Of a stretch of DNA of 64,000 bases, positions 28,357 to 37,160 are shown one piece after another. Below the pieces are notes generated by a model. It was not told the DNA's origin. It ran no database searches and saw nothing but the letters and a program-made list of their open reading frames with translations. Position 1 is the first letter of the stretch; every line of letters begins with the position of its first letter. Location of the stretch: contig JAJDUP010000005.1 in the NCBI GenBank assembly GCA_022826565.1, positions 62,001 to 126,000 of the forward strand, written 5' to 3'. This DNA is from Gemmatimonadota bacterium (GTDB taxonomy: Bacteria; Gemmatimonadota; Gemmatimonadetes; Longimicrobiales; Gaopeijiaceae). The position numbers were made by a program, and so were the translations under genes.

Positions 28357-29424
28357 TCAGTTCCCCGCCCCCAGCCACTTCTCCGGCGCCAGCGCCCGGC
28401 GGCGCTCGTCGGGCCGCTTGTTGAACCACCCGACCGTCAGCAGCACCTCGGCGGCCGCGTCGGCCTCCAGGCTGGCGTCCCGATCGGCCAGGGTGGGCTG
28501 GAAAGCCTCCTTCACGGTCTCGTCGGCGCGGCGGCGGGCCGCGTCGCTCTTCGGCCACGGGATCTCGCTCCACATGCGGCCCCGGCGGATCAGGTACAGG
28601 CGGTCGTCGCCCCCGAATCCGCTCACCGGGTAGACCAGGTTGAAGTTCTCGATCCGGCCGCGGAATCCGGAGAGGTGGTCCCACAGCTTCTCCAGCGTCT
28701 TCATGCGGTCGTGGAGGCGCGCGGCGTACTCGAAGTCGAGCCGCCCGGTCGCGCTCCTCATCCGATCGCCAAGCCTGGCGAGCGGAGCGCGGCTGCGGGT
28801 CTCGAGGAACGCCCGGGCCTCCGTGAGACGGGCGTTGTACTCCGAGGCCGTACAGCGGCCGGCGCAGGGTGCGGGACAGGTGCCCGTTTCCCCGCGAATG
28901 CATCGGGGAGTGCGGCCGCCGCCGAAGATCTCGATCTGGTCGCCGAAGTGAATGGGGGTGTCGGCCCGGCAGTCCCGCAGGCCTGTCGCGAGCGACAGTT
29001 CATGAACGGCGTGGGCCAGCCAGATCGTCCGCCCGAAGGGTCCGTAGTACCGGGCCCCGTCGTTGGCGGCGCGGGTGGCCGGAACGAGGCGGGGGGCGGG
29101 CTCGCGGGTGATCTTGATGAAGCCGTAGCGGCGGTCCCGCTTGTGCTGGACGTTGTACTCGGGCTGCCAGGCCCGGATCAGGTGCATCTCGCGGAAGAGG
29201 GCGGCGAATTCGTTCGGGATGTAGTCCCACCGGACGGACGCGGCTTCGGACACCAGGCGGGCGGTCTTGCCCTCCTGCTCGCGGAAGTAGGAGAGGAGGC
29301 GCGAGCGGAGGCGCACCGACTTCCCCACATACAGGATCCTGCCGTCGGCGGAGAGCCAGCGGTAGACCCCCGGCCGGTCCTCGGCGGCGGCCCGGACCTC
29401 GTCCCTGAGCGATGCGGCGTTCAT
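28357..29424 (-). CDS. GIY-YIG nuclease, Cho-like UvrC homologue
   Basis: 355 residues: an N-terminal GIY-YIG endonuclease (PGVYRWLSADGRILYVGKSVRLRSRL), a UvrC-like middle with a cysteine cluster (CRADTP, then CIRGETGTCPAPCAGRC near 170-190), and a UVR-like helical segment (FEYAARLHDRMKTLEKLW). The C-terminal RNase-H-like nuclease and HhH domains of UvrC are missing. This is the layout of Cho, which makes the 3' incision at bulky lesions. The cysteine cluster resembles the iron-sulfur-type cluster region of UvrC. It is divergent from the HD phosphohydrolase gene. Confidence 0.82.
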   Translation of the reverse strand: MNAASLRDEVRAAAEDRPGVYRWLSADGRILYVGKSVRLRSRLLSYFREQEGKTARLVSEAASVRWDYIPNEFAALFREMHLIRAWQPEYNVQHKRDRRYGFIKITREPAPRLVPATRAANDGARYYGPFGRTIWLAHAVHELSLATGLRDCRADTPIHFGDQIEIFGGGRTPRCIRGETGTCPAPCAGRCTASEYNARLTEARAFLETRSRAPLARLGDRMRSATGRLDFEYAARLHDRMKTLEKLWDHLSGFRGRIENFNLVYPVSGFGGDDRLYLIRRGRMWSEIPWPKSDAARRRADETVKEAFQPTLADRDASLEADAAAEVLLTVGWFNKRPDERRRALAPEKWLGAGN

Positions 29425-33119: not shown

Positions 33120-33611
33120 ATGGAACAAGACGCACGCCTGGATCCTGCCCGATTCCGCGAGATCATGGGTCACTACCCCACCGGAGTGACCGTGGTCACG
33201 GCACTGCACCGGGACGGCACGCCCTTCGGGCTGACGGCGAACTCCGTGACTTCGGTCTCCCTGGATCCTCCGCTGGTGCTGGTCTGCGTCTCGGAGAAGT
33301 CGTCGTCTCTCGGCGCGATCCTGGCCAGCGGCGCCTTTGCGGTGAACGTCCTCGGGGCCGGCGCCGCCACGACCGCCGTGCGCTTCGCCGAAGTGGACAC
33401 GGAGCGCCGCTTCGACGGCGTCGGCTACACAGTGGGCGATGGCGGCAGCCCCATCCTGGACGGCGTCGTGGCCTGGCTGTCCTGCACCCTCTACCGGACC
33501 TTCGAGGCCGGCGACCACCTGATTCTCGTGGGGCGCGTGCAAGGGGCGGATGCCGCCGGCGGAGATCCCCTCCTCTTCGTCAGGGGCCGCTACGACGCGG
33601 TCGAAACATGA
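33120..33611 (+). CDS. Flavin reductase domain protein
   Basis: 163 residues of the FMN-binding split-barrel flavin reductase family: MGHYPTGVTVVTALHRDGTPFGLTANS, SVSLDPPLVLVCVS, SGAFAVNVLG and the late GDHLILVGRVQ. Members reduce FMN or FAD with NAD(P)H and often feed a two-component monooxygenase, or act alone on chromate, quinones or styrene epoxidation partners. No monooxygenase lies nearby. The stop overlaps the next start by 4 nt (ATGA), tying it to the following three genes. Confidence 0.88.
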   Translation: MEQDARLDPARFREIMGHYPTGVTVVTALHRDGTPFGLTANSVTSVSLDPPLVLVCVSEKSSSLGAILASGAFAVNVLGAGAATTAVRFAEVDTERRFDGVGYTVGDGGSPILDGVVAWLSCTLYRTFEAGDHLILVGRVQGADAAGGDPLLFVRGRYDAVET

Positions 33612-34885
33612 GGAGGCGTCCGCAGTCGGTGGACGAATCGGCGCGGTTACCGGGGGCGAGAGCGCGTGCGCTGTTCTGGCTTCCGTCGCTGCTGGCGGGC
33701 GTGGCCGTCGCCGCCGCACTGGCTACCAGCGCGGGGATCCTGCTGTACAACTCGCGCGGGTTGACGCAGGCGGGCGCGGTGCTGGTCGCGGTCAGCGCGA
33801 TCTCGCTCATCGCCGGGATCTGGATGGGGGGCGGGGACCGGGAAGACGCGGTGCCGTCGGCGGCGCGCGGGTGGATGGGGTTCCTCCTGGCGCTCCTGGC
33901 CGGGGCCGCGTTCGCGGGGCTGTGGGAGTTCATGAACGGGTTCGGCGCCAACTGGGCGGCGCAGGGACTCGGGCTGGCCCTCACCGCGGCCCTGCCGTCG
34001 TACTTCGCGGGGGGCGTATGGGGCCGGATGAGCGGGTTCGCGGGGTCACTCGGGTCGGGGGAGCGGCTCCAGGTCCTCCTGGGGGGGATCGGGGGAATCG
34101 TCGCTGGCGGCTCGATCGTGCTCGCCATGCTGGGCAAGCCGGTGCTGGCGGTCACCGTCTTCCTCGGCGCGGCGGTGCTGGCATCGGCCGGCGCTCGCTG
34201 CCTCGGCTGGATCTTCGACCGCGTTCCGCATCGAAAGCCGGTGCTCCGGGAGGACGGCCGGCCCGAACTGCGATTCGAGCGCTGGGAGACCGCGGTCCCC
34301 GCGCGATCCGTTCGCGTGCTGTGGGACGGGGGGATGGAGCGCGCCGTCGATCCCCCTGTGCCCGGGGACTGGAGGGCCGCCGTGGTTGCCTCGCTCAAAG
34401 ACGCCGGCGGGGTGCTCTTCGTCGGCGCGGGCAGCTGGATTGCACTGCCGAATGACCGGGAGTGGAGCGTCTTCGAGCCGGACGGCGAAGTGCGCGGCCT
34501 CGCCGCCCGCGGATTCGGCTGGGACGAGGCTGTGCAGGTGGACTCGCCCATCCCTGCGAGGCCGGGATGGACGGTCGTCGCGGAGCGTGAGCTGGCGATG
34601 GAGTTGAAGATGGAGGCGCTCCACGACGCGGGCGTCGAATGGGTCTGGGTCGGTGGCCGGCGGGGCCGTCCCCCAGAGAGCCTGTGCCAGGCGGCGCGGG
34701 AGGCCGGGTTCAGCGTTTCCGGCTACCGTGGAGCCGCGCAGCGCAGCGAGGGGCCGCCGGTATTCGGGCCGCGCCACCACGAACTGTGGTGCTTCGACCG
34801 CTCGCCGTCGCCGCCTGCAACGGTGCAGGGGATGGAGGCGATTCAGCCGGCGGAGGAGCCCCCGGCGCCCGACGGCGAGCCATGA
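33608..34885 (+). CDS. Membrane protein with a degenerate spermidine-synthase/methyltransferase-like tail
   Basis: 425 residues. About seven hydrophobic helices occupy residues 18-210. The soluble tail (about 230-400) has GGVLFVGAGSWIALPND followed by WSVFEPDGEV, which resembles the first two strands of a Rossmann methyltransferase as in fused MFS/spermidine synthases. The glycine loop is incomplete and no amine-binding motif is visible, so activity is doubtful. It overlaps both neighbours by 4 nt (ATGA), so it is translated with a flavin reductase before it and an SbcD-like protein after it. I do not recognise a named family. Confidence 0.6.
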   Translation: MRRRPQSVDESARLPGARARALFWLPSLLAGVAVAAALATSAGILLYNSRGLTQAGAVLVAVSAISLIAGIWMGGGDREDAVPSAARGWMGFLLALLAGAAFAGLWEFMNGFGANWAAQGLGLALTAALPSYFAGGVWGRMSGFAGSLGSGERLQVLLGGIGGIVAGGSIVLAMLGKPVLAVTVFLGAAVLASAGARCLGWIFDRVPHRKPVLREDGRPELRFERWETAVPARSVRVLWDGGMERAVDPPVPGDWRAAVVASLKDAGGVLFVGAGSWIALPNDREWSVFEPDGEVRGLAARGFGWDEAVQVDSPIPARPGWTVVAERELAMELKMEALHDAGVEWVWVGGRRGRPPESLCQAAREAGFSVSGYRGAAQRSEGPPVFGPRHHELWCFDRSPSPPATVQGMEAIQPAEEPPAPDGEP

Positions 34886-35829
34886 AGCTGGCACACCTTT
34901 CCGACCTGCACCTCGGGTACGGCGGTACCGGACGGGGGCGCGGGCGGGCCACCGACGTGCTGCGGGTCTTCGAGACTGCGCTGGAGCGGATCGCCGAGTT
35001 CGAGCCGGAACTCGTCGTGATCGCGGGCGACGTCTTCGAAAACCCCGACGTGCCGCCGCCTCCGATCGCGGTCTTCTCGCGGGCGGCGGCGAGGCTGCGG
35101 GAACGCGTGCCCGGCGTGATCCTCGCGGTTGTGGCGGGCGCCCGGGACACCCCGCTCGACCCGGAACGGCACGGTCCTCTCGCTGTGGTTGGGGCACTGG
35201 AATCGGTGGAGGTGGCGACGGCGTCGGTCCGGCGCCTTACCCTGCGCGGCGGGGAGGCCAGCGTGACCCTGGTGCCGCACCCTGCCGTCGCCGCCGCCCG
35301 CGCGCTCCCCGTGCGCCCCGACCCGGACAGGAGATGGAACGTGCTCGTGATGCATGCCGCGGTGGCGTCCGCCGGCGCGCGCGCCCCGCGGGTGCGGATG
35401 CGCGACTGGGACTACATCGCCCTCGGCTCCAGCCACACCCGCACCCAGGTCGCGCCCCGTGCGCACTACTGCGGGTCGCTGGAGCGGATCGGGCCCGATC
35501 CGTGGGGAGAGGCTGCCGTCGACAAGGGGTTCCTGACCGCCGACCTCGAGGCGGGAGAGGTGAGGTTCCGGCCGGTCGAGGCCCGCGCCGCCGTGAGCCT
35601 CGCGCCGATCGACGCGGCCGGAGGAAGCACGGCGACGGTCGCGCGGAGGCTCAATGAAGCGCTCGCCGGGGTGCCGGGAGGGATCGACGGCAAGCTGCTC
35701 CGGCTTCCCGTGCGGGGGCTTTCGGTCGATGACCTCGCCGTGCTGGACCGGGAGGTCCTGGGGCGGATCCGGCGCCGCGTCGTGGAGCTGCGCGTGGATG
35801 CGCTGCCCGCCAGGGGGACTGTGCCGTGA
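34882..35829 (+). CDS. SbcD/Mre11-like metallophosphoesterase with missing active-site residues
   Basis: 315 residues aligned by eye with SbcD: HLSDLHLG (D8, H10), VVIAGDVFEN (D50), then the place of GNHD reads GARD (86-89), NVLVMHA keeps a histidine (158), and the place of GHxH reads GSSH (182-185). The bridging Asn, the catalytic His and one metal His are therefore lost. The second half keeps the SbcD-like CGSLERI and a capping domain (WGEAAVDKGFLTADL). Canonical SbcD is a Mn-dependent nuclease; this version probably has no nuclease activity. It overlaps the next gene by 4 nt (GTGA), like sbcD-sbcC pairs. Confidence 0.75.
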   Translation: MKLAHLSDLHLGYGGTGRGRGRATDVLRVFETALERIAEFEPELVVIAGDVFENPDVPPPPIAVFSRAAARLRERVPGVILAVVAGARDTPLDPERHGPLAVVGALESVEVATASVRRLTLRGGEASVTLVPHPAVAAARALPVRPDPDRRWNVLVMHAAVASAGARAPRVRMRDWDYIALGSSHTRTQVAPRAHYCGSLERIGPDPWGEAAVDKGFLTADLEAGEVRFRPVEARAAVSLAPIDAAGGSTATVARRLNEALAGVPGGIDGKLLRLPVRGLSVDDLAVLDREVLGRIRRRVVELRVDALPARGTVP

Positions 35830-37160
35830 AGCTGCAGACGCTCACGGGAGGGTCCCGCGGCTCCCGCGTCGACCTGCGCGATGCGCGTGGACTGGTTGCC
35901 GTAGTCGCCGACCGCGATCCCGCGTGGCGAAGGTACACGCGCGCGCTCCACACCGCGTTCGCCAGCGGCGGGACCTTCCGCGGACCGGGGCCGGTGGTAT
36001 CGTCGCCGGACGGCCCGGTCAGGGTGGGTACGCCGCGCTTCGAGTCGCTCCTGGGCCGGACCCTGGGCCTGGCAAGGCACGGGATGCGCCGGGTGGAGTA
36101 TGCGGCGGTGTGGTACGGAGCCGGGGCGGCCGGCACGTGGCTGTCCGCGGCGGGGGCGCTATTGCAGGGTGCGGGGAGCGGGGGGAAGGGTGGTGGACGT
36201 GCCGGGGGGCAGGGCGCGCCGGGCGCGGACGCGAGGGCGTTGCGGGAGAAGGCCGCCGAGGTGGCCACGCGGGCCGCGGCCGCGAAGGTCGCGTGGATCC
36301 GGGAACGGCAGGATGCCGAGACGCGGCTGCTGCTTCACCGCGACCGGGAGCGCGAGCTGCGCCGCCGGGTGGCTGCGATCGAGACGGCCGGGGATGCCGC
36401 CGACTGCTCGGTGTGCGGGCGGCCGTTTGGAGAGCACGCCGAATCGGTGCTGGCCGCCCGCAGGGAGGAGTGGGAATCGGTCGTGCAGGATGGCAAGTGG
36501 TGGCGGCGGCGCAGGGATCAGCTGAAGCGGAAGCCGGGGCAGCTCGCGTCGCTGGAGCGTAAAGCGGCGGCGTTGCAGGGGCGGATCGCCGGCGTCGCGC
36601 GCGAGGGAGCCGGCACGCACGGGGAGGCCGGGGGGGGCACACGGGGGGTCGGCCAGGGCGCGGGAGCCGCCGAGGGGGTGGCCGTGTCCGCGCGGGAGGC
36701 CGGCAACGGGGTCGCGGCGTCCGTGCGGGAGGAGGTGCGGGGCAGGATCCATCGCAAGGTGGTGACGCTGACGGGCGGCCGCATTGCCGGGTCGTTTCCC
36801 GGCCTCTACGAGGAGTGGACCGGGGGCGGGCGGGGGGGTGGGGAGGAGATCACGGTCCTTCGCATCGCCGCGCGCATCTCGATGGCGGAACTGGCAATCC
36901 AGGGCGGACTGGAGATGGGGGCGGTCGTCATCCCCACCGGCCTCGAACGACTGAGCGCCGAGGACCTGTCACGCGTGCTGCCGGAGCTGGCGGGCCTGGG
37001 AGGCAGGATCGGATTCGTGCTGGTGAAGGCGACCGCGAGCGTCGTGGCCTCGGCCCCGGAGTGCTTCGACCTGCTGTTCCGAATCGAGGATGCGACCGGG
37101 GCAGGGCGGGTCCGCAGGCAGAGATCGGGCGTGGGAACGGTGCGACTTCAGTCGGACTGA
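35826..37160 (+). CDS. Short SbcC/Rad50-like coiled-coil protein with zinc-hook motif and no Walker motifs
   Basis: 444 residues, less than half the usual SbcC length. Where Rad50 has Walker A, residues 28-36 read ADRDPAWR. A helical stretch (136-190) leads to DCSVCGRPF (C194, C197), which has the form of a zinc hook (CxxC), and a second helical stretch (200-305) returns. The C-terminal lobe still follows SbcC order: GGGEEITVLRIAARISMAEL in place of the signature, AVVIPTGLERLS (366-377) in place of Walker B and D-loop, VKA in place of the H-loop. It should dimerise through the hook but not bind or hydrolyse ATP. The assignment rests on manual alignment and on the SbcD-like neighbour. Confidence 0.65.
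   Translation: MKLQTLTGGSRGSRVDLRDARGLVAVVADRDPAWRRYTRALHTAFASGGTFRGPGPVVSSPDGPVRVGTPRFESLLGRTLGLARHGMRRVEYAAVWYGAGAAGTWLSAAGALLQGAGSGGKGGGRAGGQGAPGADARALREKAAEVATRAAAAKVAWIRERQDAETRLLLHRDRERELRRRVAAIETAGDAADCSVCGRPFGEHAESVLAARREEWESVVQDGKWWRRRRDQLKRKPGQLASLERKAAALQGRIAGVAREGAGTHGEAGGGTRGVGQGAGAAEGVAVSAREAGNGVAASVREEVRGRIHRKVVTLTGGRIAGSFPGLYEEWTGGGRGGGEEITVLRIAARISMAELAIQGGLEMGAVVIPTGLERLSAEDLSRVLPELAGLGGRIGFVLVKATASVVASAPECFDLLFRIEDATGAGRVRRQRSGVGTVRLQSD

Follow-up and report, generated by a model that had tools for sequence, protein, structure and literature searches.

An Mre11–Rad50-like gene pair that has apparently lost catalysis and retains its zinc hook in a family of Gemmatimonadota

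The SbcCD/Mre11–Rad50 complex cuts, clamps in an ATP-driven manner and tethers; how much of its work is purely structural has been argued mainly from point mutants. Where the complex is intact, the coiled coils and hook of Rad50 are credited with tethering DNA (PMC7260605), and His173, His206 and His208 have been described as nuclease residues (PMC3175470). Mre11/Rad50 fusion proteins, among them Mimivirus R555, carry both partners in one chain. In R555, Walker A, Walker B and almost all catalytic residues of Mre11 survive; proteins of this type are described as occurring sporadically and spreading laterally (PMC3175470). The B subunits of eukaryotic replicative polymerases, which come from PolD DP1, show that an Mre11-like nuclease subunit can lose its catalytic residues and persist as a scaffold (PMC6355029). 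Here we describe two adjacent genes, termed D (SbcD/Mre11-like) and C (SbcC/Rad50-like), in a 64,000-nucleotide (nt) stretch of a Gemmatimonadota genome (Gaopeijiaceae; assembly GCA_022826565.1, contig JAJDUP010000005.1, positions 62,001 to 126,000), hereafter the window. The pair resembles SbcCD in gene order, in the Mre11 fold of D and in C, whose Rad50-like head bears a coiled coil with a CxxC hook, and it descends directly from an intact pair at the same locus. It differs from SbcCD in its short coil and in its losses: Walker A, the signature, Walker B, the catalytic His and one metal site out of two. Motif comparisons give good support to a loss of catalysis in both partners. We tentatively propose that the two proteins could form a pseudo-enzyme Mre11–Rad50 complex, acting as a bridge that is joined by the zinc hook and needs neither ATP nor nuclease activity. 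In the open-access literature, we found no paper that deals with inactive paralogues of SbcCD, or with SbcCD in Gemmatimonadota.

D occupies positions 34882–35829 (315 amino acids (aa), ATG start) and C positions 35826–37160 (444 aa, GTG start), both on the plus strand, as are all features of the pair given below. The two open reading frames (ORFs) overlap by 4 nt and are translationally coupled with D first, so that the sbcD–sbcC order and overlap in the preliminary description stand, as do its motifs for D (SDLHLG, AGDVFEN, GARD, VMHA and GSSH) and for C (ADRDPAWR, CSVCGRPF, VVIPTG and LVKA). DNA repeats within the pair are short and imperfect only. By homology, the pair belongs to the SbcCD/Mre11–Rad50 family. 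D matched TIGR00619 (sbcd) with an E-value of 2.4e-9 and 37 bits, under the cut-off of 77.65, and matched solved Mre11 chains at about 1e-5. The D half of the model of L021, a fused orthologue from the window's genus, matched Mre11 in Foldseek (E 6e-16, target TM-score 0.69). Sequence-family searches with C gave nothing significant, the best match being Rad50_zn_hook (E 0.19), apart from DUF6437 (E 0.062, under its cut-off). C was considered through a template-free AlphaFold2 model built on an alignment of 23 orthologues (mean predicted local distance difference test 81.7, predicted TM-score 0.59), in which an alpha/beta head is formed from both chain ends and two helical arms flank the CxxC, the arrangement of a zinc hook between coiled-coil arms. 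When this model was compared with the PDB by Foldseek, SMC/Rad50 heads ranked at the top (E 1.1e-4 to 8.9e-4, probability 0.99-1.00); the TM-scores were modest (0.25-0.42) with large root-mean-square deviations, which we attribute to differing directions of the coil. An Mre11 fold for D, by sequence and Foldseek, and an SMC/Rad50 head with coiled coil for C, by AlphaFold2 and Foldseek, are thus both supported, as the preliminary description had anticipated.

The state of the nuclease motifs was tallied in 66 distinct degenerate D proteins and 26 intact relatives. The equivalents of D8 and H10 (motif I, SDLH, 34900–34911), D49 (motif II, GD, 35026–35031; numbering of Pyrococcus furiosus Mre11) and H208 are present in all 66 degenerate proteins. 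GNHD is replaced, in the window by GARD (35137–35148): its ligand Asn and catalytic His occur in 0/66 each, and 64 of the 66 have Arg at the His position (GxRD). Of GHxH, which reads GSSH in the window (35425–35436), the first His is found in 2/66 and the second in 66/66. The equivalent of H173 (35353–35355) is present in 50/66 and is Tyr or Arg in the other 16. All of these positions are present in the 26 intact relatives, with a single exception at H206. From the structure of P. furiosus Mre11, we take the kept ligands to bind one manganese and the lost ligands to bind the other. Where the motifs were readable, D sampled from families f2, f3, f4, f5, f6 and f9 had them intact, although L169 reads GEHD and the search pattern missed GNHD in three f4 loci. 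Two degenerate copies of D, one of them cut by a contig end, were observed in a single genome (L109 and L110 in G344), with GESE instead of GNHD.

This pattern bears on whether D might still be an enzyme. It is possible, though unlikely in our judgement, that D retains an old or altered one-metal hydrolase activity, for example as a phosphodiesterase acting on some other substrate, with C as a dimeric carrier. The invariance of four ligands, the replacement of the lost His by Arg in nearly every protein, which looks like specific substitution and not drift, and the good conservation of D over its full length are what such an activity would predict. Against it stand the loss of the other site's ligands together with the catalytic His, and the use of both metal sites in the family's known metallophosphoesterase chemistry. 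The eukaryotic polymerase B subunits are a precedent for an Mre11-like fold that persists without catalysis (PMC6355029), though their complex is another one, lacking both a hook and a Rad50 partner.

In C, ADRDPAWR (35907–35930) stands at the Walker A position without GxxxxGK[ST], VVIPTG (36924–36941) at the Walker B position without DE, and LVKA (37020–37031) at the H-loop position, where intact relatives have LITH. Walker A, the SGGE signature and the DE of Walker B are absent from every degenerate C checked, and CxxC is present in all; complete intact relatives have all four, the divergent L113 excepted. The GGGE that had been taken for a surviving signature motif is not conserved, since orthologues read GRGGED, RRGGKE, GKREGRD or PGRSD. 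What marks an ATP-driven nuclease, namely GNHD and GHxH with two full metal sites, Walker A, SGGE, Walker B and the H-loop His, is accordingly missing from the pair. Both proteins are also shortened: D of the window ends at 315 aa compared with about 380-400 aa in intact relatives, so that the C-terminal Rad50-binding tail is gone, and the coiled-coil arm of C has about 60 residues compared with roughly 200. The description of the locus as a catalytically silent pair that keeps a zinc hook held across the whole degenerate set (66 D proteins and every C examined), with the caveat that one metal site of D retains its full set of ligands.

The hook itself is the part of C that has changed least. 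In the AlphaFold2 model, a first coiled-coil arm (residues 132-191, 36219–36398) leads to the CxxC (CSVC, residues 194-197, 36405–36416), and a second arm follows (residues 202-266, 36429–36623) with a break at 235-237. The best-conserved block, WxRERQDAE..CxxC..VVQDGxWWRRRR..QL..KP, spans residues 157-240 (36294–36545). Among degenerate pairs whose D proteins are less than 45% identical, the hook segment is on average 51% identical, compared with 20% for the N-lobe (possibly an underestimate, as the N-lobe boundaries are approximate in this set) and 25% for the C-lobe. The corresponding means among intact pairs are 39%, 58% and 63%. Constraint on C is inverted: the hook is its best-conserved region in the degenerate proteins and its least conserved region in the intact ones. 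Such conservation would also suit a zinc or redox sensor, in which CxxC and its flanking helices switch a partner; we hold this to be highly improbable, as the block is inherited with the same pattern from a normal Rad50 zinc hook and requires no new role.

Between close pairs, D gave ratios of nonsynonymous to synonymous substitution (dN/dS) of 0.12-0.26. For C, 11 of 12 pairs fell at about 0.10-0.26. The exception was C of the window compared with L006 (0.46), in which the low-complexity linker reached 1.5 and the N-lobe and hook gave 0.21 and 0.17. A local pseudogene pair is ruled out by these ratios and by conservation across the family. That the pair is more broadly in decay, as the missing catalytic motifs, the shortened coil and the free linker in that one comparison might suggest, is scarcely credible: the frames are open in tens of genera, D, the lobes and the hook are under purifying selection, and four ligands and CxxC are completely retained.

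The origin of the pair could be followed through its neighbours. In one genome each of f3 and f2 (L141 and L144), a flavin reductase gene and a membrane protein gene precede an intact D and an intact C, followed by a TrpE or TMEM260-like gene, and the window shares these neighbours. A single branch of the D tree (support 90/69; 93% of bootstrap trees) separates all degenerate rows from the remainder. From the shared neighbours and the tree, the pair and the normal Mre11–Rad50 of the sister families are orthologues, sharing descent at this locus. The hook block likewise follows its own intact ancestor (RQDAE..VQDG) and not canonical SbcC. Motifs and tree place the apparent loss of catalysis at the base of a single Gemmatimonadota family or close to it; because the branch support is moderate, two parallel losses instead of one are still conceivable.

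A contig scan of genomes returned 28 loci. Close orthologues account for 18, of which one is fused and 17 are split pairs, two being truncated by contig ends; L029 is a more distant split pair, six loci (L024-L028 and L033) each consist of one fused D–C ORF (833-928 aa) that shows these losses too, and three (L030-L032) are intact pairs. A D-type match (E <= 1e-10) was obtained in 347 of 395 genomes of the phylum, intact SbcD being included in this search. The degenerate pair occurs widely in the window's family, where the profile matched 97 of 121 genomes, spread over 30 of 40 genera. D and C are often fused in family members, although not in the window, and the recurrent fusion and the 4-nt overlap imply that they still act together. 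The fused relatives resemble R555 in having D and C in one chain; unlike R555 they have lost the motifs, and inheritance here is vertical.

The window's genome also encodes an intact SbcD–SbcC, beside a HerA-like ATPase gene (L034, G000:C40:131000-137500); the preliminary description had raised the question of such a second copy. Just outside the window lies a pair of the YhaO/YhaN type (L036, G000:C35:148500-153500), which is like D and C in being a phosphoesterase and an SMC-like AAA partner in one operon, and unlike them in its intact GNHD/GHVH and GPNESGKS and in the very long branch that separates it from D. Across the 121 family genomes, SbcD exceeded the TIGR00619 cut-off in 39 and PF13558 its cut-off in 46. 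Both the degenerate pair and canonical SbcD were found in 25, the degenerate pair only in 72, canonical SbcD only in 14 (all 11 genomes of genus g4, and G035, G192 and G233) and neither in 10, counts that are approximate owing to incomplete genomes and sub-threshold matches. In several small genomes (genus g8 and some of g7), the degenerate D is the sole SbcD-type match.

These counts speak to the earlier suggestion that the pair regulates true SbcCD, for instance through mixed hook dimers. Canonical SbcD is present in the window's genome and in every genome of genus g1, and in the window's genome such regulation may occur. As a general role it is disfavoured, since canonical SbcD stays below the cut-off or is absent in 72 of the 97 carriers; in genus g4, canonical SbcCD occurs without the degenerate pair, and the hook block follows its own intact ancestor rather than canonical SbcC. 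We regard this explanation as very unlikely. A link to Ku-dependent end joining was considered and rejected: Ku occurs in 61 of 121 family genomes with no association, and 10 of the 11 g4 genomes have Ku and no degenerate pair. A known defence system was also rejected, as no window protein had a PADLOC match. The LmuB and Jet profiles (Lamassu and Wadjet) matched no window protein, and one fused relative gave a weak match in the coiled coil only.

Immediately upstream, and overlapping D by 4 nt, is a gene for a membrane protein with multiple transmembrane segments and a degraded spermidine-synthase-like (SpeE-like) C-terminal domain (33608–34885, plus strand), a conserved neighbour and possible partner that precedes the pair in most degenerate loci. 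A GGG-type motif of the SpeE-like domain is kept in the f3 relative L141 and degraded in the window's clade. By sequence, motif loss in this lineage thus affected two adjacent enzymes that are unrelated to each other. The complex might instead work at the membrane with this upstream gene and have left DNA metabolism altogether, for which the overlap, the conserved neighbourhood and the decay of the SpeE-like domain in the same lineage can be cited. We think this improbable: the same neighbour precedes intact Mre11–Rad50 in f2 and f3, so that the linkage is older than the loss of catalysis, and degenerate loci L151, L155 and L156 have no upstream match to the membrane protein. Elsewhere in the window (28357–29424), a short UvrC-like protein of 355 aa with GIY-YIG and a UVR motif resembles the N-terminal half of UvrC.

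Of the readings weighed here, a structural tether, which the preliminary description had also raised, suits the evidence best. The bridge that we propose would have arisen when an intact Mre11–Rad50 locus lost its ATPase motifs, one metal site and the catalytic nuclease His at or near the base of the family, the changed pair then being retained by purifying selection, in many cases with D and C joined in a single polypeptide. D would retain the core of Mre11, and C would consist of a head with a short coiled coil that would dimerise at its tips through zinc-bound CxxC hooks. The assembly could then hold together two DNA segments or two partner proteins, independently of ATP and without cutting. 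Several points weigh against this proposal. DNA binding, zinc binding and complex formation by D and C are predictions, and the genes around the pair do not point to DNA repair. D of the window's clade lacks the C-terminal segment that binds Rad50 in intact Mre11, and in yeast, shortening of the coiled coil strongly impairs end joining, which needs tethering (PMC7260605). The full retention of one metal site suggests that D may do more than serve as a passive scaffold.

Extended to the family as a whole, the proposal would have permanent, ATP-independent bridging replace cutting and ATP-driven clamping, in what would be, in many genomes, the only complex of Mre11–Rad50 type besides YhaO/YhaN-like pairs; we consider this broader claim possible but somewhat doubtful. 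A whole bacterial family nevertheless appears to have dropped both catalytic functions yet kept the hook under strong selection. The pair may serve as a natural separation-of-function experiment, for which intact orthologues at the same locus are the controls, and in the many carrier genomes without canonical SbcCD its phenotype would not be masked.

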